Origin: Desulfovibrio sp.
Lineage (GTDB): Bacteria > Desulfobacterota > Desulfovibrionia > Desulfovibrionales > Desulfovibrionaceae
Length of the DNA stretch: 64,000 bases
Reading direction: 5' to 3'
NCBI GenBank assembly: GCA_030145055.1
Contig: JAQYWK010000001.1
Coordinates: 372,001-436,000 of the forward strand
In this document: piece by piece, positions 1 through 19,456 of the stretch
Layout: every line of letters begins with the position of its first letter
Position numbering within the stretch: the stretch's first letter is position 1
The notes under the pieces: generated by a model
The model's input: only the letters and a program-made list of their open reading frames with translations
What the model was told of the DNA's origin: nothing
The model's database searches: none
Translations under genes and position numbers: made by a program

Positions 1-210
1 TTCTTCCATAACTGATCGGTAAGACTCAATCTTTCCGATGTCTGAATTATGAAAAATGATACGTTCATCATCTGGAAGATAGTTCTGATATCCTGATGAA
101 AGATCGTCGAGAACAAGCACCTGTCCCACTTCGTCACGAAGTAGTCTTTCAATTAAGTTCAGGCCTATTGCTCCGGCGCCGCCAGTTACAAGAATTTTGG
201 CATTATTCAT
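1..210 (-). CDS. NAD-dependent sugar-nucleotide epimerase/dehydratase (N-terminal part, cut by window edge)
   Basis: The first 70 residues of an extended short-chain dehydrogenase/reductase are visible; the rest lies beyond position 1. The start ATG is at 208-210. The Rossmann nucleotide motif TGGAGAIG is at residues 9-16, and an Asp-Asp pair at residues 35-36 closes the second strand (VLVLDDLSSG), the usual ribose-binding position for NAD. Family members epimerise or dehydrate UDP- or GDP-sugars in the cytoplasm; the exact substrate cannot be told from this fragment. It overlaps the end of the upstream glycosyltransferase by 8 bases, so it is probably translated from the same mRNA as the glycan genes at 203-5295. 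Confidence 0.85.
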   Translation of the reverse strand, partial: MNNAKILVTGGAGAIGLNLIERLLRDEVGQVLVLDDLSSGYQNYLPDDERIIFHNSDIGKIESYRSVMEE

Positions 211-1381: not shown

Positions 1382-1384
1382 CTT

Positions 1385-2542: not shown

Positions 2543-2559
2543 CAGATCGACCTTCTAAC

Positions 2560-4125
2560 CTACTCGCAAGAAGTTAGGTTTTCGTCTTTTTCTTTGTATT
2601 TTGAGCTACAGCGGACACATTCTAGTGAGCTTGGGAGAATCTCGCCGCACTCGCATACCCAACCAGTTCTGTGGGCCGGATTGCCAACCATCAGAGCATA
2701 ATCAGCTACATTTTTAGTGACAACTGCGCCTGCGCCGATGAGAGCGTATTTTCCAACCTGATTTCCGCAAATAATGGTGCAGTTTGCGCCAAGAGTCGCA
2801 CCCTTTTTAACGAGGGTTTCACGGACTTCATTCATGCGTGCAACATGTGCACGTGGATTGAATACATTGGTGAAAACCATTGATGGTCCACAGAATACGT
2901 CATCTTCAAGAGTTACACCCTTGTAGACAGATACGTTGTTCTGAATTTTGCAACCGTTACCGATTTTTACATTCGGGCCGGCAACAACATTCTGACCTAG
3001 ATTACAATTTTCACCGATGGTTGTACCACCTAGGATGTGTGAAAAATGCCATATTTTGGTTCCGCTACCGATCTCAACGTTTTCATCAACCACAGCAGTT
3101 TCGTGAACGTTTGCGGATGGTGTGTTCGCTCCGGTATTAAGAAGAACTTCGCGACTATGTTCGTTAAGAGATTTCTGGCTGGCGTTCAGAACTTTTAGGA
3201 CGCGTAAACCTTCTTTAGCATCGGTCCTAGGAGCTTTTCCTGATTCCATGCAGTCCAAAAAGTGTTTGCACTCAAGGAACAACGGCTCATCCTGCGGAAT
3301 TTCAACTCTTTCAGCTTCCGCTTTAGATGGAACGGGGATGTTGTTTTCCCATTCTACTTTATGCGGGTATAAGAGGAGCTTTTCTTCCCATGGAAGAGTG
3401 TCGTCAAAGACGGCCATTTTGTTATCACCGACAACAACTATCTTCTGTTCTTTAAACGGGTGCAGCCATGAAACAAAAATATGAGCTTTTGCGCCGGAAG
3501 GAAACTCAAGGTGCGTGGTGGTAACATCTGCAATATGGTTATGCAGAAAATTACCGCCAGTTGCGATGACTTTTTCCGGCTCTTCACCGAGCAAGGACAG
3601 AATCATGGAAATATCATGGGGAGCGAAGGACCACAGAATGTTCTCTTCACGCCTGATTTTTCCAAGGTTTAGTCTATTGGAATAAATATAGTTGATGCGG
3701 CCTAGTTCGCCGGTCGTAGCAAGCTCACGCAATTTTACAAATACAGGGTGGTACTGAAGCAGATGCCCAACCATGAGGATAAGATTTTTATCCTTGGCAA
3801 GAACAATCAGTTCTTCGGCTTCGCCTTCATTCAGAACAAGCGGCTTTTCCACATATACATGTTTTCCCGCAAGCAGAGCTTCCTTGGCAAGTGTAAAATG
3901 TGTTTCTGCCGGAGTCGCGATTACGATTCCATCGATATCTTTATTATTTAAAACTTCTCCATAAGAGAGAACTGTTTCAACTTTAGGATACTGTTCCTTG
4001 AAGCTCGCAAGTGTGTCTTTATTAGTATCGCAGATGACCTTGAGTGCACCTGTGCGATCGTAATTACGGACAAGATTTTTACCCCAGTAACCGGAACCTA
4101 CTACTGCAACTTTGAGTTTGCTCAT
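2560..4125 (-). CDS. Fused Gfo/Idh/MocA dehydrogenase and hexapeptide N-acetyltransferase (WbpB-WbpD type), with C-terminal zinc-ribbon-like tail
   Basis: One 521-residue open frame holds two enzymes. Residues 1-325 form a Gfo/Idh/MocA oxidoreductase: the GxGxxG nucleotide motif is at 10-15 (GSGYWG) and the EKP signature at 93-95. Residues 338-485 form a left-handed beta-helix acyltransferase with repeated isoleucine/valine-rich hexapeptides. The last 30 residues carry C491, C493, C503 and C506, a likely zinc knuckle. In the UDP-GlcNAc3NAcA pathway WbpB oxidises C3 of UDP-GlcNAcA, WbpE aminates it and WbpD acetylates the amine; WbpE lies immediately upstream (12-base gap). A clear ribosome site (GGGAGAA) precedes the ATG. 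Assignment to this pathway is inferred from domain pairing and neighbours. Confidence 0.85.
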
Positions 4126-4137
4126 TAGGTTTCTCCC

Positions 4138-5295
4138 TTAAGCGTTTCTGATAGCGTCTGCGATGTATTCTTGCTGTTCCCTTTCGAGGTAAGGGTGCAT
4201 CGGAATTGCAAAAATACGGCTTGCAGCATCTTCACTAATAGGACAATCGCCCATTTTGTAACCAAGTTCTTTGAACGCGGTCTGGAGGTGAAGCGGAATA
4301 GGGTAATATACAGGAGAAGGAACATTTTTTTCTTTCAGTGCAGCCTGAATTCTGTCGCGGTGTGCGCCATCTTTAGCAAGTGGGCAATACTGCGCCCATA
4401 CGGAGCGGTCGCCTTCTGGAGTAGAAGGAGGAGTAAGTCCGTCGATATCGCTAAGAAGTTCAGCATATGTTGAAGCAACCTTGTCGCGAAGCTCTACTTC
4501 TTCAGGGAAAATATCAAATTTTGCTTGGAGAGCAGCAGCTTGAAGGGTGTCTAGTCTACCGTTGATGCCAAGACGAACGTTATCGTACTTGTCTGGACCC
4601 TGTCCGTGTACACGGTGGGAACGTAAGCGTTCGATTAACGCGTCATCGTCAGTGAAGCACATGCCGCCGTCGCCGTAACAGCCGAGGGGCTTAGCAGGGA
4701 AGAAAGATGTGCAAGTGATATCACCTAGTGAGCAGGATTTTCTGCCTTTGTATTCGCCGCCGAAGCTTTGAGCAGCATCTTCAATGATGAACAGGTCATG
4801 CTTATCTGCGATGGTTTTGATAGCATCGTAGTCAGCAGGCAGGCCGAAAATGCCAACAGTGATAATCCCTTTCGCGGTCAAACCTTCTACTTTAGGCAGA
4901 ACCATTCCGTTATCTGCACCTTTGAGAGCTTCGATGGTTTTTCCTAGCTTTTCAGGATCGATATTGAAGGTAACAGGGTCGATATCTACATAGACTGGTG
5001 TTGCACCGAGAAGTGCTATGGCTTCTGCTGTGGCAAAAAAAGTAAATGGTGTGGTGAAAACCGCGTCGCCGGGTTTAACGTCAAGGGCCATGAGCGCGAG
5101 AGTTAGAGCGTCTGTTCCGGATGCACAGCCTAGGCCGTGTTTGGTCCCACAGTATTCAGCAAGTCTCTTTTCTAGAGCTGGAATTTCTGGGCCCATGATG
5201 TATGCGCCATGTTCCATAACTGCGTCCATGTTGCTACGGACTTGTTTTTCAATGCGTGAGTACTGTTTTTTTAGGTCAATAAATGGGATATTCAT
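4138..5295 (-). CDS. wbpE: PLP-dependent sugar aminotransferase, DegT/DnrJ/EryC1 family (WbpE type)
   Basis: A 385-residue aminotransferase of the DegT/DnrJ/EryC1 family. The PLP-binding lysine is K202 in SFFPAKPLGCYGDGG, the cofactor aspartate lies in EDAAQSFGG at 173-180, and GCASGTDAL (56-64) binds the phosphate. These enzymes transfer an amino group from glutamate to a 3- or 4-keto nucleotide sugar in the cytoplasm. The neighbouring fusion would make and then acetylate a 3-keto/3-amino UDP-GlcNAcA, which points to WbpE (UDP-2-acetamido-3-amino-2,3-dideoxy-glucuronate formation). It appears to be the first structural gene of the operon running down to position 1. Confidence 0.85.
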   Translation of the reverse strand: MNIPFIDLKKQYSRIEKQVRSNMDAVMEHGAYIMGPEIPALEKRLAEYCGTKHGLGCASGTDALTLALMALDVKPGDAVFTTPFTFFATAEAIALLGATPVYVDIDPVTFNIDPEKLGKTIEALKGADNGMVLPKVEGLTAKGIITVGIFGLPADYDAIKTIADKHDLFIIEDAAQSFGGEYKGRKSCSLGDITCTSFFPAKPLGCYGDGGMCFTDDDALIERLRSHRVHGQGPDKYDNVRLGINGRLDTLQAAALQAKFDIFPEEVELRDKVASTYAELLSDIDGLTPPSTPEGDRSVWAQYCPLAKDGAHRDRIQAALKEKNVPSPVYYPIPLHLQTAFKELGYKMGDCPISEDAASRIFAIPMHPYLEREQQEYIADAIRNA

Positions 5296-5339
5296 GAGAT
5301 TTAATTCTCCGTTTTAAGCGTAATCTGTGTTTAGAGTTG

Positions 5340-5867: not shown

Positions 5868-6747
5868 GATGTGAGTTTGTTAAGTTATTTTGTACGAACT
5901 GTCAAACGAATTTAAAAAAATCAACCGAATCGATGTGTCTAATCCTACTCAATAGGCTTATACCCGTACATTAATTAATGTGCTGCTCCGCGTAATATCG
6001 ATAACTCATGCGGTGAATTATCACGACCATATGAACATACTTTTATGACAAAGACATACCATTTTTGAACATAACGATCCAGAAAGTGGAGCTTTGCTCG
6101 CCATGAATTTTTATAGACGAATAATTACAAATGGGAATTGATACTATTTTTTGCCAGCGCTCAATGGAGCATTTACTTGATGTGATTGATTGTCGATGCG
6201 CACGAGGTGATTCATAAACTCATGAATTCATCTATCTCTGAATGACGGACAAGCACGAGGCTATTAAATCAGGCTTAATCACCTAATTAATTTATAATTT
6301 AGTGCGAGACAGAGCAATTCAGCCTCATAATATCATTTGCTTTTTATTTTGATCCTGATCTGGTAAGTGCACATAACAGAGAAAACCGAACATGATGCTC
6401 AACAATTCAACCCTTTCGATAAGGCTGAATTTGTCAGTACAAGCTTGATAAAATCCCACATATGCAGCGGTGGTTATAGCCACATTTCGACAAGAGTAAA
6501 ACAGAGACAAGTTCTTATAGATTGGATTGCTGGAGCTGAAGAATACGAATTTAAAGCTAATCAAGCATGCCACAACGTTTCAGCATGCTCAGTTCTTTGA
6601 CTATCCTTCTTGCTCCGATTGAAAGGACATACAGAATAGATCAAAACGATAAAAGGCAGGGTTATGGCCATTGACTTCGCTTTATCAAGTTCAGGAACAT
6701 GGCTTCATGATTCTAAGCAAGCTTTAAACAGATGATCCAAAAAAGAA
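5868..6747. other. Gene-poor intergenic region
   Basis: About 880 bases with no convincing coding region. Two opposing short frames (6325-6573 minus, 6367-6600 plus) lack recognisable motifs and usable ribosome sites. A 14-base perfect palindrome (acattaattaatgt) lies at 5968-5981, about 100 bases upstream of the regulator start, and could be an operator. Short stretches on the plus strand (around 6155-6210) look like decayed coding sequence, possibly a transposase remnant, but I cannot name a family. I see no RNA gene. Confidence 0.5.
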
Positions 6748-6776
6748 GGGGGGGTAACTTTTCAGTTACCCCCCCC
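6748..6776 (-). terminator. Strong Rho-independent terminator of the sequon-rich protein gene
   Basis: A 12-base-pair perfect stem (ggggggtaact half at 6748-6759, partner at 6764-6775) with a 4-base loop; on the minus strand it is followed by a T-rich tract. It lies about 50 bases past the stop codon at 6825. Confidence 0.92.
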
Positions 6777-6824
6777 AACTTTTCTTAATTCTAGCTATCT
6801 AGAGCCAAGTAATCAAATTAATGA

Positions 6825-8837
6825 TTATTTTTTGAAGCGGCTACGAACGATAGCAACCATTGGAGCAAGCATCAGCAACAACCATTCAAGGCCGAAGCTA
6901 GCAGCTGGGTTGAATACACAACCAGATGATGAGCTTGAAGAGGAAGTAGGAACGGAACCCAAGACAACTGGGTCAATGATACCGTACGCAGTTGAGTTAG
7001 AATCCCAAACACTGTTATCTTTAACTACCCATGTTACATAGTAGTCAGTTGCAGGATCAAGGATTGAGTTCGAGTTCAAGTAACCGTCAGCAGTGTTAGT
7101 GGAAATCCACCAGGAGCCGCCAGTTGCTGGAGTTGGTTTGCTTGCGTAAGTGAACTGTCTAGCTGTTGTAGAATCAGACATTACTTTGAACAGTCTAAGA
7201 TCAGCAATTTTACCACCAACACCGTTCATTTTGTACTGAGCGGAGAAGTTGAAGTTACTGTTCTGAGCAGTAGTGAACATTGTGTAACCTTTAACTTCAG
7301 TAAGCGGAGTGAAGTTGGAAGGAATTCCAGTCCAACGAGCTCTCAATGAAGTTGAAGTGTAACCAGTAGCGTTGTTCACGAAGTAAGTAGGAGCGAAGCC
7401 TGCTGTTGAGTTACCCTGGTAACCAATAGCAGCTGTTGCAGTCAACGCTGTCTGAGCGCTTGAAGGCATCAAGAAACACAAGGATCTGTAACCATCGTAA
7501 TCTTCGAAGAAACCAACAGAGAATACTTTATCAGCAGACTGTTTACCGTAGAAGCTACCAATTGGAGTAGTTCCGTCAGCGGCGTAGATAGTCATGTTTG
7601 ACTGAGATAATTTAAACTGTGAAGTTGAAGCGACAACAGCTGACATTCTACCAAGGCTAGCGGAGTACGCAGTCTGAGCGGAAGCTGTACCTTCTTCAAG
7701 AACGCGAGCGTTACCAAGAAGGTTCAAGTTTTCATCAGCACTGAACTGAAGCATACCTGCAGTAGCGTTACCGCTACCCTGACCAGCGTAACCAGACCCA
7801 ACATAAATCATGTTAAATCCGCGGTTCTTTACGTCATTAGCGCCAAGAACTGTTCCGCTTTTAACCATAACACCGAACAATTTCTGTGTTGCTGAATATA
7901 CGTAACCAGTAATCATGTTCTGGTCAGCGTTGATAGTTGCGTTTTCGAATAGAGCAAGACCACCGTTTCTAGTCAGGGACATAATGCCACCAACAGTAGG
8001 GTTCTTTGTCAAGCCAGTAGCGTTGAAGTTCATCCAAGTGGATGTGTTGTCAACTTTGTCAGTACCGTTGTTCATGTAGTACTTAACCTGAGCATTGGAA
8101 TTGCCTGTAGTAGTATTGATTTTTACCTGTGCAAAAACCATAACTGGCAAGTTAGTGCTCTGACCGAATCCGTAGTAGTCCCAAGTTGTGGAAGTACTAG
8201 CGATGTCTTTCAAAGTACCATTTGCGTAAATGATAGGCATGGAAAGACCAGTTCTTGGACCTGCTGCTGTTGGCACAGGTACAAGTCTTTTGTAATTAGC
8301 ACCCTTTGAACCGAGAGTTCCGTTAGCAAGACCAACTAGTAGCTGGGAGTTACCTGCAGACATGAAAAGAGTCTGACCAGTAGTTGCTGTTGCGTTGAAA
8401 GGAGAGAAACCTGCTGTACCTGCTGCATCTAAACCTGTAAGACCTACAATATTACCAAACTGCTGACTGTAAGTCAGATCCATTTTTGTAGAGTTAAGGA
8501 AGTAGTAGTTCTTCACTGTTCCGTTGTAACCAACGATAGATGCGTTGGAGAAACGAACTGATTTAGAAGCATTGATGTAGAATTTTTCAGATTTACCAGC
8601 TGCAGTCATGTTTGACGCAAAAGGAATCATTTCTTGAACAATACCTTTACTGATTGAACCGGAAGTGGCGTTAATACCAAAACCTGTAAATACCAGTGTT
8701 GTACCATTGCCTTTTGCATAAGCACCGCTAGCAAAAGTCTGGTTAAAATAAGCCGGGAAAGATTTGTCGACTGCTGCAAAAGCGCTGGAAGCTGCCAGCA
8801 TCAGCAGTACTGTAAAGAGAACTGTAATCTTTTTCAT
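6825..8837 (-). CDS. Secreted sequon-rich surface glycoprotein candidate with Gly-Cys C-terminal sorting tail
   Basis: A 670-residue protein of unknown family. Residues 1-22 are a Sec signal peptide ending AFA. The body is rich in Ala, Gly, Ser, Thr and Asn and contains 23 N-x-S/T sequons by direct count, 19 of them N-x-T. Only one (D-S-N-S-T near residue 615) has an acidic residue at -2. The end has seven serines (632-638), Gly639-Cys640, a hydrophobic helix and a basic finish RSRFKK. This layout matches the tripartite CTERM tails (MYXO-, Synergist-, JDVT-type) handled by CPBP intramembrane proteases. A good ribosome site (AAGGAGAT) precedes the ATG. The oligosaccharyltransferase lies 135 bases upstream, the secretion genes beyond it. 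A surface-layer or abundant surface-protein role is inference. Confidence 0.8.
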   Translation of the reverse strand: MKKITVLFTVLLMLAASSAFAAVDKSFPAYFNQTFASGAYAKGNGTTLVFTGFGINATSGSISKGIVQEMIPFASNMTAAGKSEKFYINASKSVRFSNASIVGYNGTVKNYYFLNSTKMDLTYSQQFGNIVGLTGLDAAGTAGFSPFNATATTGQTLFMSAGNSQLLVGLANGTLGSKGANYKRLVPVPTAAGPRTGLSMPIIYANGTLKDIASTSTTWDYYGFGQSTNLPVMVFAQVKINTTTGNSNAQVKYYMNNGTDKVDNTSTWMNFNATGLTKNPTVGGIMSLTRNGGLALFENATINADQNMITGYVYSATQKLFGVMVKSGTVLGANDVKNRGFNMIYVGSGYAGQGSGNATAGMLQFSADENLNLLGNARVLEEGTASAQTAYSASLGRMSAVVASTSQFKLSQSNMTIYAADGTTPIGSFYGKQSADKVFSVGFFEDYDGYRSLCFLMPSSAQTALTATAAIGYQGNSTAGFAPTYFVNNATGYTSTSLRARWTGIPSNFTPLTEVKGYTMFTTAQNSNFNFSAQYKMNGVGGKIADLRLFKVMSDSTTARQFTYASKPTPATGGSWWISTNTADGYLNSNSILDPATDYYVTWVVKDNSVWDSNSTAYGIIDPVVLGSVPTSSSSSSSGCVFNPAASFGLEWLLLMLAPMVAIVRSRFKK

Positions 8838-8924
8838 AATGAAAAGATCTCCTTAAGTTAAAGTTAACAAGACCAAACCCTAAAAAGCCCAATGCCTTCA
8901 ACGGGTTAGGAAATTTATGGTGTA

Positions 8925-8953
8925 AACATACACTTATCGTTCGTATAACTCAA
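8925..8953 (-). promoter_or_regulatory. Candidate sigma-70 promoter for the sequon-rich protein gene
   Basis: On the minus strand, TTGAGT (8948-8953) and TATGTT (8925-8930) are separated by 17 bases, about 90 bases upstream of the start codon and just after the oligosaccharyltransferase stop. Each hexamer matches the consensus at four of six positions. It would let the surface protein be transcribed independently of the upstream genes. Confidence 0.4.
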
Positions 8954-8972
8954 CCTTTTTTTTCTCTTCCGA

Positions 8973-11084
8973 TCAAATAACTTCATAAACTCTGACATTT
9001 GGAAAACCTTCATATGTTATTTTAAATCGCTTTGAAATTTCAGGCTGAGCTGGGTCTTCGATTAATAATTTTATCAACATGCTTGAGTAAGCAAAGTCAT
9101 CAACTAAAAAACCTTGTCTTACAGATTCATTAAACAGTAAATGCGGCCCGGTAGCCCTATTATAACTTTGAGCAACACCACCCGTAGCTTTTAAAATATT
9201 ATAGGACTTTAATGTATTAGAACCTTGCCCATTAATATTTATCCCTCCGTCCCGCGCATTCAAATCAAATGGACTGTTTATAAATAAAACGTTGGGATGT
9301 ACGCCGGTACCCGTACGGACGTCCCACGATCCATAATAAAGAATCCAATGCGCAAGTCGGATATTCTCCCAACTAACTACAATATACTGCTTAGATATTG
9401 GTGGGAATTGATACTCTTCATTACCAAAAGAGTTTAACATCGCCTGAACTTGTGAAGAAGCCATCTTATCCCATTTTTCAGCAGGATTACCCTCACTTAC
9501 AGCACTATATTTGATCACTTGATTAGCTTGCAAAAACGAAGGAGTGGTATAGGCCAAGCTCAATGGAAATAGAATATGTCCAGCATGATGTCCCCCGTTT
9601 GCAAAAGAGTTCACCCCCGAATAATACATGGTTGCATATCCCCAGTCCCACCATGTCCAAATAGTACTATCTTCAGGAATGTTCTTACCTGTCTCAACTA
9701 AAGCTTTGACGTGAGCTGGCCCCATAATGGGCGTGACCTGAGACCCTGCATAAATTGGAGCGACCTTAAACAAAAGGATGGCGATTAACAATATCGCTTG
9801 AGCAACTTGAAACAATTTATTAGTTCTATCTATTTCAACAAACCGATCTAATAAATAAACAGAAATGAAACTCAAGCCTATACCGATTGTGATACCACCA
9901 AACATAGAAAAACGACCACCCATAAAAATCGCTGCAAATGTTACAACTGCAAATGGAAAGAGCAAAATCATAACAGGGCGCAACGCCAATGCGACAGCAA
10001 AGCTTACAAAACCCAGCCACCCTAAAAAGGCACTCCCTGTCAAATTTGCAAAGAAAATTTCAAAGTTGATGTTTTGGGCCTCAATTACACTTTGTGCTAT
10101 TCCTGGATAAATGGGTCCGGAGACTGTGGCTGAAGATTCTGAAACTGGCTTCAAATAAGCCATGATTTTTTGCGACACAGCCATAATCGAAGTAAGACCT
10201 ATCCCGTTTAACATAATAAAACAGATACTTATGGCTAAATAGCAATACACATTGTTAAAATATCTATTAGCCCTGACTTTGGGATTTAAAAAAAGCGCAA
10301 TCAGCAACAACGAAATTAAAAGACCTGACCATCCTGCAAACGCAACTATCAAAAATAAGAAAAGACCACGCATTAATTCAGGACGGCTATTCTTTGTACC
10401 GCAAACAATAGAAAGCGCCATGGCAATAATTACGATCACTATTCCAAAAGTCTCAACATCTCCATGCCACATTTGCCCATAAGAAGTCACAGCCCCCGCA
10501 AGAACAGGAAGACAATAATCCCAAACAGTAGGATTAAATTTAATCTCAATACTCTTAGAGGGTAGCCAAGACTTTTTAATCCCCATAAGGACCCACCTGG
10601 CAAGCAACACTGAAATTAGCAGCGGGAAAAATAATGTAACCACATCGGTGTCGTAATATGTAAGTCTAGTTCTAAAATAATAAGCAGGAATAGACGTTGC
10701 GTACACAGCTCCAACAAGCCCTACCCAAGGTCCAGCTACGAGCATGCCCCATGCAAAAGCGGAGACAGCACAAAATCCGGCAAAAATAGCAGGAAGCCAA
10801 AAAGCAATATTGCCGTAGTACTCGCCTGTCACACTTCCAAGAAAATGTATCAAACTAGACATAGGGTTACCAACGGCACTGCCTATCCCTTTCGCCCCCG
10901 CCAACCAATAATAAGCATCATGGGTTCCCATGATATACTCACCATTTACTAAAAAGCTTGGATTATCCCATTTAGGCAAATCCAAACACCTTAAACCAAA
11001 GGCAAAAGCAAAGGATACAAGCGAAAAAAGTAAAAATACCTTCCAATCATCCACCCAAGCCGGTTTTCGAAATTCCTGCCTCAT
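8973..11084 (-). CDS. STT3/PglB/AglB-family oligosaccharyltransferase (N-glycosylation)
   Basis: A 703-residue polytopic membrane enzyme with about 12-13 predicted helices in the first 440 residues and a soluble C-terminal domain. It transfers a preassembled oligosaccharide from a polyprenyl lipid to asparagine in N-x-S/T sequons on the outer face of the inner membrane. Visible landmarks are the first acidic metal site in GTHDAYYW (D56), YYDTD (D145, D147), an external-loop SVIE motif with E335 and the signature WWDWG at 478-482. WWDWG departs from the commonest WWDYG only at the fourth residue. Desulfovibrio PglB homologues are known active enzymes with acceptor rules differing from Campylobacter PglB. 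It sits between GspE and the sequon-rich protein, its obvious candidate substrate. Confidence 0.93.
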   Translation of the reverse strand: MRQEFRKPAWVDDWKVFLLFSLVSFAFAFGLRCLDLPKWDNPSFLVNGEYIMGTHDAYYWLAGAKGIGSAVGNPMSSLIHFLGSVTGEYYGNIAFWLPAIFAGFCAVSAFAWGMLVAGPWVGLVGAVYATSIPAYYFRTRLTYYDTDVVTLFFPLLISVLLARWVLMGIKKSWLPSKSIEIKFNPTVWDYCLPVLAGAVTSYGQMWHGDVETFGIVIVIIAMALSIVCGTKNSRPELMRGLFLFLIVAFAGWSGLLISLLLIALFLNPKVRANRYFNNVYCYLAISICFIMLNGIGLTSIMAVSQKIMAYLKPVSESSATVSGPIYPGIAQSVIEAQNINFEIFFANLTGSAFLGWLGFVSFAVALALRPVMILLFPFAVVTFAAIFMGGRFSMFGGITIGIGLSFISVYLLDRFVEIDRTNKLFQVAQAILLIAILLFKVAPIYAGSQVTPIMGPAHVKALVETGKNIPEDSTIWTWWDWGYATMYYSGVNSFANGGHHAGHILFPLSLAYTTPSFLQANQVIKYSAVSEGNPAEKWDKMASSQVQAMLNSFGNEEYQFPPISKQYIVVSWENIRLAHWILYYGSWDVRTGTGVHPNVLFINSPFDLNARDGGININGQGSNTLKSYNILKATGGVAQSYNRATGPHLLFNESVRQGFLVDDFAYSSMLIKLLIEDPAQPEISKRFKITYEGFPNVRVYEVI

Positions 11085-11147
11085 GAGATATTAACTCCAA
11101 TATAAATATGTCTTAGATGTAAATTTAGGTGCGGGGCACAAGATCAT

Positions 11148-12632
11148 TTATTGCTTTGTAACTCGAGCAATTTCTTCAAGAGTAGTAACTCCCTCACGAA
11201 CGAGACGGACGCCGTGATCAACCATTGTCTCAAGGCCCTGCTCTTTGGCGTGGGCTTTGATCCTATCAGCAGAAACAACGTCCATAATCAATCCGCGCAT
11301 ATCTTCTGTTACAGGCAACATCTCGTATACGCCTTTTCGTCCACGGAAACCGGTAAAGTTGCAATGCTCACAACCTTCACCTGCGGTTTGTGTTGTAGGT
11401 AGACCATCAAATCCATCAAAAAGTTTTGCTGTGTGGTCAGAAACAGAAATAATTTTAGAGCAATGAGAACAATTAACCCTGACCAACCTCTGACCAAGAA
11501 CAAGCGAGAGGGAAGAAGCAAGCAAAAATGGTTCAATACCCATATCAAGCATTCTTGTTACAGCAGTTGCGGCATCATTTGTATGTAAAGTAGAAAGGAC
11601 GAGATGACCTGTAAGGGCGGCTTGAACGGCAGTACTTGCTGTTTCCTGATCTCGAATTTCACCAACCAGAATAATATCAGGGTCCTGCCTGAGGAAAGAA
11701 CGAATCGTGGTAGCGAAGGTCATACCAGCGGCCTTGTTTACCTGAACCTGATTTATGCCGGAAAGCTGATACTCAACAGGATCTTCAATTGTAACTATAT
11801 TTTTGTCATCGCGCGGGAGTTCGCTGAGTCCTGCATAGAGGCTAGTTGTTTTACCAGAGCCGGTCGGTCCGGTTACAAGTACAATCCCATGCGGCTGAGC
11901 TAAAGCACCTCTAAAAATCTCAAGATCTTTACCCTTGAGGCCAAGATCTTCCAAATTTAAAATATTTTTGGAGCGATCAAGAATACGAAGAACAGCCTTT
12001 TCGCCACTCATAGTAGGAATTGTGGAAACACGGACATCAACTTCTTTCTGACCAAGCTTAATAAAAATTCTACCATCTTGCGGCATACGGCTTTCAGCAA
12101 CATCCATCTCACCCATAACTTTAATACGGGCAATAATCGTAGCCTGGAGTCCACGATCAAGTCGTTTAACAGCCTTAAGAACTCCATCCTGGCGATAGCG
12201 AACCACAAAGCCTGTCCCTTGTCCTTCGAAATGAATATCACTTGCGCCAGATGTAATTGCCTGATGCATTGTCTTATTCACAAGACGAACAATAGGAGCA
12301 TCATCGTGTGACCAACCTAAAAGATCTTCTCCGTCTTCCCCTGCATTCTCTTCATCAGAATCAGACTCAATCGAGCTCTCTTCTTCCCAAATGGTCAAAG
12401 CCTGCTCTAGCAATGGAAAGAACTCATCTTCATCCACAACTTCAGTGATGACCTTTTTCCCGATCTTCCATGCAATAAAATCAGCCATTGGTAATGAAAC
12501 TTCATTTTGCACCAGCACCTTAATTTCGTTCTCCCCAACTTCCACGGGAATAAACTCACTACGTTGCGGGAAAGTTAGAAAAAGTTCCACGATTTCGCGT
12601 GGAACTTTGCTAAGATCGTAAGAATTACTCAA
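11148..12632 (-). CDS. gspE: Type II secretion ATPase GspE
   Basis: A 494-residue cytoplasmic hexameric ATPase that powers the type II secretion pseudopilus. It has an N-terminal GspE/PilB docking domain, Walker A GPTGSGKT at 255-262, the acidic Asp box near 317-328 (DPDIILVGEIRD), the His box LSTLHTNDA at 346-354, and a tetracysteine zinc site C388-x2-C391 with C421-x2-C424. The short N-terminus and GspD neighbour favour GspE over PilB. The start appears to be TTG at 12630-12632 with AGG upstream, 9 bases after the gspD stop. No other gsp genes are in the window, so the rest of the machine must be elsewhere. Confidence 0.92.
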   Translation of the reverse strand: MSNSYDLSKVPREIVELFLTFPQRSEFIPVEVGENEIKVLVQNEVSLPMADFIAWKIGKKVITEVVDEDEFFPLLEQALTIWEEESSIESDSDEENAGEDGEDLLGWSHDDAPIVRLVNKTMHQAITSGASDIHFEGQGTGFVVRYRQDGVLKAVKRLDRGLQATIIARIKVMGEMDVAESRMPQDGRIFIKLGQKEVDVRVSTIPTMSGEKAVLRILDRSKNILNLEDLGLKGKDLEIFRGALAQPHGIVLVTGPTGSGKTTSLYAGLSELPRDDKNIVTIEDPVEYQLSGINQVQVNKAAGMTFATTIRSFLRQDPDIILVGEIRDQETASTAVQAALTGHLVLSTLHTNDAATAVTRMLDMGIEPFLLASSLSLVLGQRLVRVNCSHCSKIISVSDHTAKLFDGFDGLPTTQTAGEGCEHCNFTGFRGRKGVYEMLPVTEDMRGLIMDVVSADRIKAHAKEQGLETMVDHGVRLVREGVTTLEEIARVTKQ

Positions 12633-12641
12633 TTTGATGAC

Positions 12642-14621
12642 CTATTCGCCTTCGGGCTGAGTTGAGGACGACTCTTGAGGATTATCCTTCACGTCACCTT
12701 TATTATAAGTATTAAATTCTTTTTCGATAAAACTGTTAAATCGAGTTCTCTGCGTACGATACTTATCCATTTTTACCTGACTAAGAGCTTCAAGCTGTTC
12801 GGTTGTCCTAATAATACGAGCTGACAAGAAAACCATTAACGTATTCTTTTTCCCGCTATTTGACTGAGTTTTAAACAACCACCCGAGCAACGGTAGATCT
12901 GAAAGATAAGGAACACCACTTTGACCGCGGTTTTGTTCCGTTTTAATCAAGCCGCCAATAACCATAATCGAACCATCAGCCAAAAGCACGGTGGTCTTGG
13001 TTGTACGGTCGTTAGTTACAGGCAAAGCCTCTGTTGTAGCTTCATTTACTGTATTATACGTTTGATATACTTCTAATTTTATAACACCGTCTTTACGGTT
13101 GATATGCGGCTTAATTCTGAGCTTAATACCAACATCTCTATAGTCATAAGTTGCTACAACAGAACTTCCGGCACTTGAAGTACTCTCACCTGTTTTATAC
13201 GGCCTGTTTTCACCAACGAAAATTTCCGCCTCAGAATTATCAATCGTCATAATTTGTGGAGCAGAGATAAGATTAAAATCACCTGCTGATTTAGTAAAGT
13301 TTACTAAGGCGCCAATGGATGGATAACTGTTCCCACCATAGGAAATGAGATCCCCTAAGACCCCCATAGAAAAACCACCAGGCATATTGCTTGGGTTAGC
13401 GGCATAGCCAGGCATATTACTATCCTTCGTTTTAGTATAACCAAAGGAAGAAACACCGCCTCCAACTTTAACAGCACCCTGCCATTCTACTCCAAACTCT
13501 TTCGCATTATTTAAAGAAGTCTCAAGAACAAGAGCCTCAATATAAACTTGGTCTTGAGCTTGATCCAATTGTTCAACAAATCTATTAATCTGAGGCATTT
13601 GATCAGCATCAGCCATAACTATCAGCGTATTTGTCGATGCATCCGCAGACACCTGAACTCCATCAGAACTTCCTGAAGAAGTCGTTGTGGTCGTAGCTGT
13701 TGCAGCGCCTTTAGAAGCCCCAGAAGTAGGAAGGCCACCGCTTACAAGGCTTTTCAGCACATCTCCGGCAACAACAGCCTCAATATTATGTAACTTGTAA
13801 ACTTTCAATTTTGAATAGGATTCAGTAACTTTATCAAGCTTGGCAACGAGGCCTTTTATCGTTGCCAACTGTTCACCACTACCTGAAACCAAAAGACTAT
13901 TTGCCCATTCAATAGGCTCAATCACCGGTGGGTTACCGGATTTTCCTGAAACAGAAAGTTTTTTGTAAAATGAATTTAATTTTGAGGAAACTGATTTTGA
14001 GTTTGTTCTTTTCAAATCAATTAAAGCCGTGGACTGCCCCGAACTGACCTTACGAACTATCCCTAAAAGCTTGCGCATCTTAGTAATATTTGCCTGGAGA
14101 TCGCGGACAAGCACAGCGTCAGCCATAGGAACAGCTGTAACATGCCCGATTTGCGAAGCAAAAGGCGTTAAAAGTAAAACTACTTTCTCAGGGGACATTT
14201 TTCCCGCAAGTTGAAAAACAGAGGTAACAATTTCTTCTCCGGAACCGCCTTGAGGATTTGATTTAATATCCGGGGAAATAAGTTTGGCGTCCCTTGAAGG
14301 TAAAATATATGTAACATTATCTCTAGTTACAGCGTAAAATCCGGCCCCCGACAGAACTTGCTGAAAAACAGCCATAAGCTCTGGTTCGGTCAGAGATTGC
14401 CCGGCATAAATGGACACATGAGTTCCAGGCAAAGCACCTTTGTTGAATACAATATTACGTCCGGTATAACGACCGACAAACTTGATGAACTCGACAAGCG
14501 AGATACTTTCCAAATTGGCGTGCACCTCATCTCCACCTTCAGGCTGAGCGAAGGCTCCAGATGAAAGAAGAGTAAGAGATATAACCAGCGCAACAAATAT
14601 CTTATTCAAAAATTTACACAT
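12642..14621 (-). CDS. gspD: Type II secretion secretin GspD
   Basis: The outer-membrane channel of type II secretion, 659 residues from the chosen ATG. A signal peptide (MCKFLNKIFVALVISLTLLS) ends in AFA. An N0 domain with SISLVEFIKFVGRYTGRNIVFN, three N-type repeats and the C-terminal secretin core follow, with the core signature VPYLSDLPLLGWLFKTQS. A low-complexity Thr/Ser stretch lies inside the third N domain. An in-frame GTG at 14642 would add seven residues, but the signal peptide is best formed from the ATG at 14619-14621; the start remains uncertain because the GGAG is 15 bases away. It is followed by gspE, the oligosaccharyltransferase and the surface protein. Confidence 0.9.
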   Translation of the reverse strand: MCKFLNKIFVALVISLTLLSSGAFAQPEGGDEVHANLESISLVEFIKFVGRYTGRNIVFNKGALPGTHVSIYAGQSLTEPELMAVFQQVLSGAGFYAVTRDNVTYILPSRDAKLISPDIKSNPQGGSGEEIVTSVFQLAGKMSPEKVVLLLTPFASQIGHVTAVPMADAVLVRDLQANITKMRKLLGIVRKVSSGQSTALIDLKRTNSKSVSSKLNSFYKKLSVSGKSGNPPVIEPIEWANSLLVSGSGEQLATIKGLVAKLDKVTESYSKLKVYKLHNIEAVVAGDVLKSLVSGGLPTSGASKGAATATTTTTSSGSSDGVQVSADASTNTLIVMADADQMPQINRFVEQLDQAQDQVYIEALVLETSLNNAKEFGVEWQGAVKVGGGVSSFGYTKTKDSNMPGYAANPSNMPGGFSMGVLGDLISYGGNSYPSIGALVNFTKSAGDFNLISAPQIMTIDNSEAEIFVGENRPYKTGESTSSAGSSVVATYDYRDVGIKLRIKPHINRKDGVIKLEVYQTYNTVNEATTEALPVTNDRTTKTTVLLADGSIMVIGGLIKTEQNRGQSGVPYLSDLPLLGWLFKTQSNSGKKNTLMVFLSARIIRTTEQLEALSQVKMDKYRTQRTRFNSFIEKEFNTYNKGDVKDNPQESSSTQPEGE

Positions 14622-14803
14622 ATTCAGCGTCACAATCTCCACCGAAATAAAATTCGGAAAGAATATTTTATAAAAAAATTTCAGACGACCATTTGCCTTC
14701 TAAGTCAGCTCAGAATCCAATCGACCTCAATCATGAATAACTTTACAACCATCCTACACTTGCAAAAATCAGTCAAGAGCAGTCATTTCTACCTGCACAA
14801 ATT

Positions 14804-15256
14804 CTACATAAATTGATAAAATAAAAACGCATTATACGCAAAATGGATGATAGTTCCCGGCACCACGCTGCGATATCTTTGCCAGATAAAACCAAACGCA
14901 AGCGAAGGTATAAGAGTAAGAAAGGCCCAGCTAGCCGGTTGATTGATAAGATGCATGCAGGAAAAAGTTAATGACGCCAGAATATTTGCCAAGCTTAAAG
15001 GGCCGATCCTGTATCCATACCGGAAAAATCTATCAATACCTTCTTGAAGAAGAAACCTGAAAAACACTTCTTCAATAAAAGCCTTAACCAAAAGCCACAT
15101 GAAAGAAAGCTTCAAATCGGGGCTTGGCACATATAAACCAATAAACCCGAAAGATAAAAACAGGTAAAAAATAGGGTCAGTAAAACTGTACACGCCCCAT
15201 TTAAATTGATGCCAAACTCCTCTCAGAATTCGGTTAACGATAAACTCATAAACCAT
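14804..15256 (-). CDS. Small CPBP-family intramembrane glutamic protease (candidate CTERM sorting enzyme)
   Basis: A 150-residue polytopic protein with the three CPBP (Rce1-like, formerly CAAX protease/bacteriocin-processing) motifs: E62-E63-x3-R67 in IEEVFFRFL, F-x3-H ending at H102, and H138-x3-N142. These form the glutamic protease site inside the membrane. It is short for the family, essentially only the catalytic core. An in-frame stop precedes the ATG, so no longer form exists. It is encoded 183 bases upstream of gspD, in the same direction as the secretion genes and the Gly-Cys-tailed surface protein. Myxosortase-type CPBP enzymes cleave such tails, so this is a candidate processing enzyme; other CPBP roles are possible. 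Confidence 0.78.
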   Translation of the reverse strand: MVYEFIVNRILRGVWHQFKWGVYSFTDPIFYLFLSFGFIGLYVPSPDLKLSFMWLLVKAFIEEVFFRFLLQEGIDRFFRYGYRIGPLSLANILASLTFSCMHLINQPASWAFLTLIPSLAFGFIWQRYRSVVPGTIIHFAYNAFLFYQFM

Positions 15257-15355
15257 ATGAGCCCTGTTTTTTATATACTGGCATTCATTTCCTCAAATAA
15301 AAATTTGTTGTCATTAAAACCAATTCTGACAACCCATTAACGACAACAACAGCTT

Positions 15356-16393
15356 CTATATCCTCTTCAAAACACGCTCAAGTACAACTTCCGGTTTCAG
15401 TTCATTCAGACATTTCATCAAGCCGCTGGCACATTTTTCGTTTCCGCAAGGCTGGCACTCCACCCCCTCTGGAACAACTTCTTCATGTTCAGGCGATGGA
15501 AATGTCCATGCACTACTTGATGACCCAGGAGGTGTTATACTCGGAGTTCCGACTCCTACAGCAAAATGTCTCGGAGCGGAACAGTTTCCAATATGTAAAA
15601 CAGCTCTTTCTATGAGAGCTGCCATAAGTCTCAGGGACCCCGGCTTTTCTAGCATAACACACTGCTCACCAAGACCTGCCACGGATTTAACATTCTCCGC
15701 CACATCCTTTTCTCCGGGACCATAGAGCAAGAAAAACTTAATCCCCTCCCTTTCCTGTGCAATCAGAGCGAGAAGCTTGCCATAAGATTCGGCTGACCAG
15801 CGTCTTGTCTCCCTTCTGTGAGAAGGGTCAACTGTGATTAACGTATCGCTTTCGCCAACACCCAGCGAGTCCAAACATGCACGCCCCTCTGCACGCTCTT
15901 CATCACTTACAAAAATTTGCGGTTTCTCATTGTCCCATTCAATTCCAAGAGGCTGCAAAACTCCAGCCTTATATTTTGCAGCGTAACCGTCAGGTATAGA
16001 GTCGGGCCAATTGGTATACAAAAAACGATTGTACCAACGCGGCTTAAAAGAAAGTTTTACAGAAGCGTTGCTGAATAAAAGCATCCACCGACAACGAGGT
16101 AACTGCTGGAAATCAACGATTAAATCGTAACCGGACCTTCCTACCATTCTATAAAAGGTTAAGGCTTTTAGTGGATTAGCAAGCTCTTTTTTATTTATCA
16201 CCCAGACATGCTGTACGGCGGGATTATTCTCAAAGACCTCGGCGCACTTTCCCTCAGTAAAAACATGAATTTCAGCATTGGGATATTTTTTGTTGAGCAG
16301 CGAAACGGAAGGTGTAGCCAATACCACGTCACCAATTTGGCGTAGCTGGCATACTAAAATTCGCTTAGGATTAATCTTACTTATATCTTTCAC
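15356..16393 (-). CDS. Glycosyltransferase family 9 (heptosyltransferase-like)
   Basis: A 345-residue GT9 protein. The opening RILVCQLRQIGDVVLATPSVSLL is the hallmark of ADP-heptose:LPS heptosyltransferases, and the C-terminal half has IGNCSAPRHFAVGVGTPSI, the donor-binding H/G-rich stretch with the usual small residues. It probably adds heptose to the lipopolysaccharide inner core at the cytoplasmic face of the inner membrane. The start codon appears to be GTG with a weak ribosome site. It is separated by about 180 bases from the GtrA/GT2 group, so it may be its own unit. Confidence 0.85.
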   Translation of the reverse strand: MKDISKINPKRILVCQLRQIGDVVLATPSVSLLNKKYPNAEIHVFTEGKCAEVFENNPAVQHVWVINKKELANPLKALTFYRMVGRSGYDLIVDFQQLPRCRWMLLFSNASVKLSFKPRWYNRFLYTNWPDSIPDGYAAKYKAGVLQPLGIEWDNEKPQIFVSDEERAEGRACLDSLGVGESDTLITVDPSHRRETRRWSAESYGKLLALIAQEREGIKFFLLYGPGEKDVAENVKSVAGLGEQCVMLEKPGSLRLMAALIERAVLHIGNCSAPRHFAVGVGTPSITPPGSSSSAWTFPSPEHEEVVPEGVECQPCGNEKCASGLMKCLNELKPEVVLERVLKRI

Positions 16394-16576
16394 TGCTCAA
16401 AAAACTCACTTTTCAAAATTATATAAAATCTAAAAAAATTTATCTTCACTCTTTAATACCAAACATAAAACAAGCGAATCCGTTTATTTTTTGAAAGCGT
16501 CGAAATAAGCACACCGTTTAAACAAAGTCCAGACTGAGCTTACCGCAAATCCTACTGACCATACATTAGATTGCTC

Positions 16577-16963
16577 TCATTTGAAAACATAACACGCTGA
16601 TAACACATAGTTTGCTGCCAGAGCGACACAAGATCCGACAGCCAGTGGAATAATTAAAGACGAACCGGGCCAAATAAGCAAGACTCCCGCATAGCACCCA
16701 TAGTTAATGATGCTACCAACGCCGTTTGATATCAAAAACTTATACCATCCACGCCAAGGCGCCTTTCCCTCTTTGCGGAAGGTAAAACCATGATGAAATC
16801 TGTAACAAACCGTCAACGCTACCAATATTGCCGGAATTCTTGCCCAAAGAGATGGTACACCGAGAGCAACTAATCCATACGTAATTCCGGAATCCACTAA
16901 GAAACCAAGCCCGCCAATACAGCAAAATCGTAAAAACCGACTACTTATCAACTGACCCGCCAT
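16577..16963 (-). CDS. GtrA-family membrane protein
   Basis: A 128-residue protein with four predicted membrane helices and GtrA features (RFCCIGGLGFLVDSG near the start, FRKEGKAPWRGWYKFLISNGVG in the middle). GtrA proteins are thought to help move or position polyprenyl-phosphate-linked sugars. The ATG at 16961-16963 overlaps the GT2 gene end by 23 bases; a GTG 27 bases upstream would give a 137-residue form. The order GT39-like, GT2, GtrA reads as a translationally coupled cassette for modifying a surface glycan with a lipid-activated sugar. Confidence 0.85.
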   Translation of the reverse strand: MAGQLISSRFLRFCCIGGLGFLVDSGITYGLVALGVPSLWARIPAILVALTVCYRFHHGFTFRKEGKAPWRGWYKFLISNGVGSIINYGCYAGVLLIWPGSSLIIPLAVGSCVALAANYVLSACYVFK

Positions 16964-17915
16964 CCATATTCTCTTTTGCACAGTAATCACGGCATATCAC
17001 AGCCGGAGATGTAAAATTCAAATATTCCAGCCTTCTCATCTCCATATGCCCGCGGCTGACGCAGTCCAATATAATACCTATTGCAACCGATAAGCAGGCA
17101 ATTATTCCGACAGAGGCGGCAAGAACAGCGGTGGGAAGTTTAGGAACAAGACCTGTCATCATCCACTCACCTACGATCGGAAGTCCAAGGATAAGAGAAA
17201 GCAGCGCAAATGCGCCTCCGATCCCTGCATAAAATTTTAACGGGAAAATATGACGGAACAAGCGCAACATGGTTAAAAAGATTCGTAAACCATCTCTATA
17301 TGTATTGAGCTTACTATGGCTCCCCTCAGGGCGCTTGCCATAAGTCGTAACCATTTCTTCCACCGGCAGACGAGCGGTAATGGAATGGATACTCATTTCC
17401 ATCTCAATTTCAAATCCACGACTGAGGCACGGAAAAGATTTTACAAATCTTCTTGAAAATACACGATAACCTGAAAAGATATCTGTAAAAGTCTTTTCAA
17501 AGATCATGCCCAGAAATTTATTAAATACAGCATTGCCCGCTTGATGGCCGGAACGGTATGCTTCATCTTCATCTTTATGATCCCGAATACCGACAACCAT
17601 ATCGAGATTATTACTTAGAAGCCTATCCACCATGGCCGGAGCCGCGGTAGCATCGTAAGTATCATCCCCATCTACCAAAACATAAACATCTGCATCAATA
17701 TCTGCGAACATGCGGCTGACCACATTGCCCTTTCCGCGTCTATTCTCAGAAGCGACCATAGCTCCGGCCGCCTTTGCAACGGCGATAGTATTGTCAGTAG
17801 AACCATTGTCGTAAACATATATTTCACAGCCCGGAAGTTGCTTTGCAAAATCGCGGACAACGCTAGTAATTGCTTCTTCTTCATTCAAGCACGGAATTAA
17901 AACTGCTGTCTTCAT
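16941..17915 (-). CDS. GT2 polyprenyl-phosphate sugar synthase (DPM1/GtrB-like)
   Basis: A 324-residue glycosyltransferase family 2 protein. The catalytic domain begins TAVLIPCLNEEEAITSVVRDF and carries the DxD-like VLVDGDDTYDA near residues 78-88; two membrane helices follow at about 230-290. This is the architecture of dolichyl/undecaprenyl-phosphate mannose or glucose synthases, which charge a lipid carrier with one sugar on the cytoplasmic face. It overlaps the upstream membrane transferase by 4 bases and the downstream GtrA by 23, so the three are probably translated together. Confidence 0.88.
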   Translation of the reverse strand: MKTAVLIPCLNEEEAITSVVRDFAKQLPGCEIYVYDNGSTDNTIAVAKAAGAMVASENRRGKGNVVSRMFADIDADVYVLVDGDDTYDATAAPAMVDRLLSNNLDMVVGIRDHKDEDEAYRSGHQAGNAVFNKFLGMIFEKTFTDIFSGYRVFSRRFVKSFPCLSRGFEIEMEMSIHSITARLPVEEMVTTYGKRPEGSHSKLNTYRDGLRIFLTMLRLFRHIFPLKFYAGIGGAFALLSLILGLPIVGEWMMTGLVPKLPTAVLAASVGIIACLSVAIGIILDCVSRGHMEMRRLEYLNFTSPAVICRDYCAKENMDGGSVDK

Positions 17916-19456
17916 TTTGCTGATCCTTCTTTAAATATATTCTGCGGTAACATTTCTCTTGGAACTATTGTCAAACTATGACCTTTACGACTGAACTCGG
18001 AAATACCTACTAACTGCGAATTAGCTAAGCTTTTATAATCACCTGAGTAAAAATAGTAATATCCGTCAATTGTTTCCGGCTTATAATCATTCCTGCCCTT
18101 GTGTCCAAATAAAATTGAGCCTACCCGGCGCGCATTTTTGGACATTTTGACATCTTCGTTTATTTTAAGGCGTGATTTCTTTTCGTACCCAACTAATTTC
18201 ATACCACTTTCTTCAATAAAATTAGGAACCCAAGCAGAATATCTCATAAGCACGGGAATATTCTTGTCAGTTATTATCCGTGCATTCTGAACATCTTCCT
18301 GTAAGCGGCAAAAAGTATTTTGAGAGGATACTCCTTTAAAAGTAAAAACAGCAAAAGCAACAATTAATCCGTACTTAAAGATCTTGGAGGCGCGCGGGGA
18401 ACTCTCCTGCCACTTCCTAAGACCTAGCAATAACACCATAATTAAATATGGCGAACCTGCTGTAATATTCCTGGAACCGAACGGTGTGGCAAGCTTGAGC
18501 GGGTTAAAGCTTGAAATCATATAAACACTGAAAAATAAGCCACTTAAAAACAATATAGCAATGCCTTTTTCTTCGTCACGACCCCGCCGGACTAGCCAGC
18601 ACCCAGTACCAACACCCGCCAAAATCACTGGTAAAAGTCCACGCAGTTTAACTAAGCTCAAAAAATTCAATAGATATTGTGAAACGCTAATCAAATGCTC
18701 ATCTTTCGCAACATGAGTCTGCGTAATAATTCCAAGTCTGCCGAAACTGTTTCCTGTTAAGTTTTGAAAGTACAGCCACTCTATAGCTACCACCAAAAAG
18801 AAAAATGCAGAAAATATAAATAGAGGGGTAACTTTTCTTTTGCCCAAATAAATTAAGGCAAATATTCCAGGGGCATAAAAAAGACTTGTTACTCTCGCCC
18901 CCCAAACGCATCCTGCGAACAGCCCGCTAATGGCTAGAAGATACCATCCTCCGTACTTCCGCCAACAAAACACGGCGAGTACGCACCCAAGCAGGTAGGT
19001 CATTTCATAAAGACCAGGCCAGAGCTGACTGCCCATGGTTGTCATTTTAGGATACAAGATTAAAAGCAATGCGGACATGAAACCGAACTGTCGATCTTTT
19101 AAAATATTTCCGAGAAAGAAAGCAAGTACTGCGCTTATGACAGAATATAGGACTGGTAAAATATAATAATTTGTAGGTGTTGTGCCAAAACAATTAAGGA
19201 TCAAGTACAATGGAAAGTTAATGGCCCACCTTAAAGTATGGTGGTTCCACACAAGCGCTGTGCCGTAATTAACCTGATGGACGACATTCTCCCATATCCA
19301 AAGTGAGTCACCACCCATCTCCACATACTCAAGAGATATCGCACGCACAGCAAGCGCTAGCAGAGCAATACACGCAGCATAAAAGACATCAGCATAGCAA
19401 GCTGAAAAATTCTTATCCTTGAAATGGGCAATCATATCGGATTTAACCTTGTTCAT
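17912..19456 (-). CDS. GT39/ArnT-like polytopic glycosyltransferase
   Basis: A 514-residue integral membrane protein with about ten hydrophobic segments and a soluble C-terminal part from about residue 390. The first loop contains a Glu-Met-Gly-Gly-Asp stretch (residues 46-50) in the place where GT-C enzymes carry their metal/catalytic acid. GT-C members use polyprenyl-phosphate sugars outside the membrane, which the adjoining GT2 enzyme would supply. The acceptor could be lipid A, LPS or a glycan; homologues of this length are often annotated PMT_2. The ribosome site is weak. Confidence 0.7.
   Translation of the reverse strand: MNKVKSDMIAHFKDKNFSACYADVFYAACIALLALAVRAISLEYVEMGGDSLWIWENVVHQVNYGTALVWNHHTLRWAINFPLYLILNCFGTTPTNYYILPVLYSVISAVLAFFLGNILKDRQFGFMSALLLILYPKMTTMGSQLWPGLYEMTYLLGCVLAVFCWRKYGGWYLLAISGLFAGCVWGARVTSLFYAPGIFALIYLGKRKVTPLFIFSAFFFLVVAIEWLYFQNLTGNSFGRLGIITQTHVAKDEHLISVSQYLLNFLSLVKLRGLLPVILAGVGTGCWLVRRGRDEEKGIAILFLSGLFFSVYMISSFNPLKLATPFGSRNITAGSPYLIMVLLLGLRKWQESSPRASKIFKYGLIVAFAVFTFKGVSSQNTFCRLQEDVQNARIITDKNIPVLMRYSAWVPNFIEESGMKLVGYEKKSRLKINEDVKMSKNARRVGSILFGHKGRNDYKPETIDGYYYFYSGDYKSLANSQLVGISEFSRKGHSLTIVPREMLPQNIFKEGSAK

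Follow-up and report, generated by a model that had tools for sequence, protein, structure and literature searches.

Proteins that end in a Cys-containing sorting tail have already been paired with CPBP-family glutamic intramembrane proteases. In beta- and gamma-proteobacteria, the genes for MrtJ and one JDVT-CTERM protein occur as a two-gene neighbourhood, and MYXO-CTERM proteins are sorted through the type II secretion system (T2SS) and a CPBP protease, lipidation of the tail Cys being proposed to precede cleavage (PMC11980579). For Desulfovibrio, oligosaccharyltransferases (OSTs) have been reported to follow a relaxed rule at the -2 residue and to accept a minimal N-x-T site (PMC4894442). 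Here we analyzed a 64,000-nucleotide stretch of a Desulfovibrio sp. genome (the window; contig JAQYWK010000001.1 of GCA_030145055.1), in which five minus-strand genes at 6825..15256 encode MrtJ, GspD, GspE, an OST and a 670-amino acid (aa) tailed protein, its candidate substrate (hereafter the substrate). We consider it likely that the product of this operon is one abundant, exported surface glycoprotein, which the OST would glycosylate, MrtJ would trim and the T2SS would carry.

In the proposed route, the 670-aa protein would be exported by Sec and then stay anchored in the inner membrane through its C-terminal helix. The STT3/PglB-type OST encoded next to it would attach glycans in the periplasm at N-x-T sites, preferably N-[Ala/Gly/Ser]-Thr, without needing an acidic residue at -2, and MrtJ would cut off the tail close to Gly639-Cys640, probably once a further enzyme has lipidated the Cys. 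The T2SS, with GspD and GspE encoded here and the other Gsp proteins at a second locus beside genes for lipid-linked sugars, would then transport the product to the cell surface. The substrate would be the main client of the OST, and other tailed proteins of the genus would use MrtJ and mostly not be selected for glycosylation. Finally, the body of the substrate appears to pass from one species to another, in many cases along with part of the OST gene, the signal peptide and tail staying constant as they would be read by the common machinery.

Composition and conservation of the operon

All five open reading frames (ORFs) were found where a sequence-only reading of this DNA had placed them, on the same strand and 9-161 bp apart (161, 9, 63 and 135 bp along MrtJ-GspD-GspE-OST-substrate). 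The small CPBP protease (150 aa; 14804..15256) matches the curated MrtJ family NF033192 at 79.9 bits, over the cut-off of 75, and scores 25 against the curated MrtX family, below the cut-off of 180 bits. It carries the catalytic motifs EExxxR (EEVFFR) and HxxxN (HFAYN), which are present in 29 of 29 among the MrtJ proteins listed, and it is the single protein over the MrtJ cut-off in its genome, where a second CPBP match is weak (27.7 bits). Because the CPBP protein is a curated MrtJ, its pairing with a Cys-tailed protein, as that reading had claimed, is of a known and already published kind (PMC11980579). The secretin GspD (12642..14642) exceeds the T2SS cut-off (TIGR02517, 401.7 against 351.35). 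The ATPase GspE (11148..12632) finds its best family in TIGR02533, yet at 562 bits it stays below the equivalog cut-off of 630.25, and the earlier assignment of both to type II secretion holds for the ATPase as a best match. The OST (703 aa; 8973..11084) passes both STT3/PglB-type domain thresholds (PF21436, 62.4 bits against 23; PF02516, 27 bits against 24.5), in agreement with the family proposed for it, and lies far below the PglB equivalog cut-off (NF050801, 86.8 against 1300). Its solved sequence relatives (PDB 5ogl, 6gxc, 3rce, 3aag) are PglB-type enzymes. The window protein carries WWDWG, DAYYW, YDTD and SVIE, and WWDWG with YDTD, SVIE/SIIE and DAYxW each occur in 15 of 15 orthologues; we take the WWDxG, DxD-type and SVxE-type motifs to be catalytic OST motifs.

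The substrate (6825..8837) is, as had been described, an exported sequon-rich protein with a Gly-Cys tail, judging from its N-terminal hydrophobic signal-like segment, its sequons and its C terminus. It holds 23 sequons, 19 of them N-x-T, where composition shuffles average 10.2 and none of 2000 reaches 23. The sorting tail (6825..6923) comprises Gly639-Cys640-VFNPAA, a hydrophobic helix predicted at 644-668, and RSRFKK; it is nearly identical in all 15 orthologues, the last 34-35 residues being near-invariant in proteins whose whole-length mean identity is 0.42. Codon use is strongly biased (AAC 0.82, GGT 0.75), like or beyond that of transketolase among the 12 window genes compared, and therefore the substrate is probably highly expressed. 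In its AlphaFold2 model (pLDDT 73, pTM 0.79), beta structure predominates, with the C-terminal helix in addition. A fold search with this model gave no PDB match at E <= 0.001, a profile search gave none among PDB sequences at E <= 1, and no phage match was found. The C-terminal domain (6924..7298) is common to other tailed proteins and related to choice-of-anchor U, hhalign giving 99.7% (with the tail included in both alignments) against an alignment headed by a protein over the NF041766 cut-off; the window substrate itself gave no match to NF041766.

Co-occurrence of the five families is conserved in relatives, as the order MrtJ-GspD-GspE-OST-substrate was found in 15 of the 17 genus genomes sampled (the window; L032, L033, L034, L036, L038, L039; L116-L123; L and G numbers designate loci and genomes). 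In L034 (G074, 16017-16560), the substrate gene has a frame break between the signal-peptide segment and the body, which is either real or an assembly error.

The genome of the window carries three further clear tailed proteins and one weak one, among them a PQQ/propeller protein and a glucanase-like protein; therefore, such a tail is also found outside this operon, and the idea of a single dedicated tail target can be rejected. A cluster of such proteins lies in the same genome at L126 (C1:255000-274900), where ORFs at 2774-6343 (1189 aa) and 14099-15850 (583 aa, PQQ-propeller-like) have terminal tails and a 1012-aa ORF between them (10952-13990) has a tail-like Gly-Cys stretch at the internal residues 761-780. 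Five tail-bearing ORFs of 559-909 aa, none clearly sequon-enriched, stand in tandem on one strand in L193 (G016 C40, 1272-14108). In L043 (G120), a genome without PF21436 match, MrtJ lies among three tailed proteins, one of which is a subtilase whose tail passes JDVT-CTERM at 40 bits (cut-off 27).

Selective N-x-T excess in OST-linked substrates

Together, the 15 OST-adjacent substrates contain 252 N-x-T sites where 85 are expected from composition, a 2.95-fold excess. The control motifs show no excess in the same proteins (observed/expected: N-x-S 70/69, ratio 1.02; T-x-N 78/85, 0.92; S-x-N 55/69; N-x-x-T 79/88, 0.90; Q-x-T 27/33). As Asn (8.2%) and Ser/Thr (21.1%) are abundant in the window protein, such sites could also arise as a by-product of composition or fold in an Asn/Thr-rich beta protein that is not glycosylated. 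We regard this as very improbable, since the reversed and shifted motifs and N-x-S stay at expectation, and since no group of tailed proteins that lack a linked OST shows the enrichment. The positions of the sites argue in the same direction: among 68 sequon columns across the 15 orthologues, 9 are common to at least 12 and 38 occur in at most 3; therefore, the number of sequons is kept while most of their places change. At the 252 sites, the +1 residue is Ala, Gly or Ser in 202 and the -2 residue is acidic in 10, a pattern that matches the published relaxed -2 rule of Desulfovibrio OSTs (PMC4894442).

We also compared other classes of proteins. The 16 other tailed proteins of the genus with fetched regions, which include the OST-adjacent protein of G117 (matches e.g. 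in G048, G105 and G140 lie outside this sample), hold 77 N-x-T sites for 77 expected, and the median sequon ratios are 0.76 for them versus 2.08 for the 15 substrates (Mann-Whitney p 1.7e-6). Tailed fragments (e.g. L135, L190) and the L126 ORF with the internal tail (10952-13990) were excluded from these class counts. As the other tailed proteins are not enriched as a group, the glycosylation signal in the genus tracks the OST-linked substrate and not the tail, and glycosylation of all tailed proteins is not supported for the genus. Outside it, four other genera have a T2SS-linked OST (G023, G024, G027, G065), and the 11 tailed proteins examined from them sum to 134/46, nine being enriched and two not (ratios 0.74 and 1.08). 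No excess is seen in six tailed proteins of OST-less MrtJ genomes (34/31) or in eight (18/18) from genomes that have MrtJ and an OST without a known T2SS link (6 proteins of G016, 1 of G073 and 1 of G137, with OST loci inspected for G016, L215, and G073, L150); L193 1272-2951, counted as tailed, has no Cys visible in its tail. Lastly, 88 untailed proteins with a signal-like start, called by a simple hydropathy rule, have 100 N-x-T sites versus 101.8 expected (fetched loci only, partly mutual orthologues).

The selective N-x-T excess, the published acceptance of minimal N-x-T and the kept OST motifs, taken together, indicate that the adjacent OST most likely glycosylates the substrate. The placement of an OST next to its likely substrate, proposed from the sequence alone, is thus supported in that N-x-T is selectively raised, as N-x-T only, and it does not extend to G117, where the tailed neighbour of the OST is not enriched. 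In G023, an untailed sequon-rich protein near the T2SS-linked OST (L214 8927-10999 and L186 1-2055, overlapping parts, 25 sequons versus about 11-12 expected in each) is a possible further client.

The interpretation of the operon as a surface-glycoprotein module, which goes back to the same early reading, is partly supported, by the conserved order, the curated MrtJ, the OST motifs and the selective N-x-T excess; several observations weigh against it. The substrate tail alone scores 13.9 against JDVT-CTERM (NF033191, cut-off 27 bits) and the whole protein gives no match; therefore, NCBI's model would not name the window tail, which moreover is not operon-specific. In G117, MrtJ-GspD-GspE is intact (L037) and the OST lies 0.3 Mb off together with a 1226-aa tailed protein (L124) that has 8 N-x-T sites for 7.3 expected. 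In G093 (L035, L125), the OST stands beside MrtJ with no GspD or GspE there and no close substrate, a tailed protein following about 24 kb on. Two of the 16 other tailed proteins are N-x-T-rich without a neighbouring OST, one in L125 of G093 (11 versus 4.6) and one in L127 of the genome of the window (8 versus 3.9), and 147 untailed proteins without a signal-like start show a mild excess (165 versus 123.7, fetched loci). In G024, there are enriched tailed proteins off the OST contig, so that adjacency is not required. Finally, the T2SS-linked OSTs fall in no one clade, and a single origin is not supported.

G093 also carries, in L212 (2240-15001), a second, remote and very divergent OST among T2SS-like genes with GspM-, GspF- and GspD-like blastp matches.

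Exchange of the substrate between species

When the 15 loci are compared in pairs, identity averages 0.89 for GspE, 0.79 for MrtJ, 0.76 for both GT9 and KAS3, 0.73 for GspD and 0.70 for lipo20k, and falls to only 0.52 for the OST and 0.42 for the substrate. Between the window and G007, the values are 0.97 for GspE, 0.60 for the OST and 0.46 for the substrate. Substrate trees reject three sister pairs supported by GspD (approximately unbiased test, p-AU 4e-58, 9e-5 and 5e-5); for the same pairs, OST trees are borderline in two cases (p 0.06, 0.086) and keep the third. Both substrate and OST retain G105+G140, which was the fourth pair tested. DNA identity drops inside the OST gene, at about nucleotides (nt) 300-600 in window/G007 and G149/G150 and near nt 1500 in G074/G153, and in the three close pairs it runs at 0.35-0.64 through the substrate body before rising to 0.67-0.77 in the tail-bearing block. 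OST and substrate distances, corrected for GspE, GspD and KAS3, are correlated (partial Mantel 0.447, P 0.0008), more for OST residues 441-703 (0.42, P 0.002) than for 1-440 (0.24, P 0.055), and MrtJ, GT9 and lipo20k show no such correlation with the substrate. Taken together, the identity breaks, the rejected sister pairs and the distance correlation indicate, at the level of sequence, that species exchange the substrate and, in many cases, the 3' part of the OST gene along with it. The two are not always exchanged together, as in G074/G153 the OST is 0.78 identical and the substrate 0.33.

Silent-site identity, computed over 14 genomes, is 0.71 in the tail, with 0.48-0.52 for the body and 0.64 for the signal peptide; the value for GspE is 0.41. 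The raised value of the tail may reflect recombination ends or an anchor, or else codon choice or constraint. Likewise, the link between the C-terminal part of the OST and the substrate could be co-adaptation or physical linkage in recombination.

Bacterial PglB enzymes are usually regarded as general modifiers, and the OST could be such a general periplasmic enzyme, the substrate being one rich client and the position in the T2SS operon a matter of chance or history. We think this unlikely. It has in its favour that the genome of the window contains one PF21436 match, so any other N-glycoprotein would use this OST, that adjacency is dispensable in G024, that the L127 protein is mildly N-x-T-rich, and that 18 of 19 OST loci inspected elsewhere in the family contain neither MrtJ nor a T2SS gene by blastp. 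Set against it are the 88 untailed signal-like proteins and the other tailed proteins of the genus, neither group being enriched, and the covariation of the OST C-terminal part with the substrate, which MrtJ, GT9 and lipo20k do not share. We tentatively put forward, as a possibility falling short of probable, a private N-glycosylation channel: an OST built into the T2SS operon and tuned to one abundant surface protein, its acceptor-side half and the substrate being exchanged as one recombining unit between the constant signal-peptide and tail ends.

The secretion step, the sugar genes and known systems

Our interpretation is least secure at the T2SS step, at the G117 exception and on the question of how private the OST really is. 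Concerning the first, the other T2SS genes of the genome lie about 54 kb away at a second locus (L128), where GspG passes its cut-off (172.1 versus 88.85), GspC, F, K and L are best matches below theirs, and the remaining pseudopilin-like ORFs have weak family matches or none. This split over two loci would fit a protein that is glycosylated and trimmed yet placed without the T2SS, GspD and GspE being mere neighbours. We find that alternative quite unlikely, as the OST has GspE for a neighbour within the genus and GspF in four other genera (on one strand in G023 and G024, divergent in G027 and G065; GspF 54-55% identical to that of the window genome), as GspD/GspE homologues are found less than 10 kb from MrtJ in L040, L042, L047, L050 and L051, and as a T2SS role for MYXO-CTERM proteins has been published (PMC11980579). 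Among the genomes inspected outside the genus, an OST stands beside a T2SS gene in 4 of 6 that bear MrtJ versus 1 of 18 that have no strong MrtJ (Fisher p 0.006, counted by hand per genome, T2SS genes being identified through blastp alone). The 1 of 18 is L153 (G029, 4731-8769), where a GspD-like gene lies 16 bp from the OST; as no MrtJ match at E <= 0.001 occurs in that genome, OST/secretin adjacency may exist without the protease. A scan of genome contigs returned 5 loci only.

At the second locus, GspF is followed by a sugar isomerase-like ORF (a reading of the ORF start only), an asparagine-synthase-type amidotransferase, a GT4-like protein, a polyprenyl sugar-phosphate transferase (below cut-off), a NeuD/PglD-type acetyltransferase (over cut-off), and a LegC-like aminotransferase and a PseB-like dehydratase (both below cut-off). 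From family knowledge, this set is presumably suited to making a lipid-linked amino sugar. In 12 of the 17 genus genomes, no more than 5.1 kb separate GspF from a PglD-like acetyltransferase, and in two more (G140, G105) the distance is 12-16 kb; in G152 the two sit on separate contigs, G154 has only a weak match nearby, and in G093 both are distant homologues and apart.

Further sugar genes flank the operon on its own strand and may have a role in this glycan. Upstream (15356..19456), family searches identify GT9, GtrA, an AglJ/DPM-like GT2 and a 514-aa membrane protein without family match. Downstream (203..5295), two glycosyltransferase-like proteins, an oxidoreductase-hexapeptide acetyltransferase fusion and a PseC/LegC-like aminotransferase were recognized as best matches, all below curated cut-offs. 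Just 3' of the substrate stop, a terminator-like hairpin (6747..6776, minus strand; 13-pair stem with 8 GC pairs and a T-rich end) was found as a sequence match only.

A link between N-glycosylation and MrtJ/T2SS sorting appears to be new, as none joining OST, T2SS and Cys tail is described in the titles and abstract openings of the papers listed by searches of open-licence literature. N-x-T selection read with same-genus internal controls names a likely native OST client and predicts its acceptor rule, and the tie to T2SS and MrtJ makes T2SS cargo, MrtJ target and OST-substrate co-evolution testable in one protein. Natural enzyme/substrate pairs of this kind would also be of interest for glycoengineers.

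A glycosylating enzyme encoded beside its one surface substrate, as proposed here, is familiar from HMW1C with the HMW1 adhesin and from pilin-specific O-oligosaccharyltransferases. These belong to other enzyme families, HMW1C being cytoplasmic and the pilin enzymes making O-links.

The OST itself resembles the PglB enzymes of D. gigas, D. desulfuricans and D. vulgaris, STT3/PglB OSTs of the same bacterial group that accept minimal N-x-T (PMC4894442). Those were assayed on model acceptors; one native glycoprotein, the cytochrome HmcA, and no T2SS link are mentioned in the parts of that paper covered here. MrtX/MYXO-CTERM of Myxococcus xanthus shares with our locus a CPBP protease, a tail with an invariant Cys and the T2SS route, reported there and inferred here; MrtX differs in being another curated family, and the main text of that paper does not contain the word "glycosyl" (PMC11980579). 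Our locus also resembles the MrtJ/JDVT-CTERM two-gene systems (PMC11980579), in that MrtJ passes its cut-off and its partner shows the Gly-Cys motif, the hydrophobic helix and the basic end. Unlike in those systems, the tail here is below cut-off, several tailed proteins occur per genome, and GspD, GspE and the OST stand between the protease and its target.

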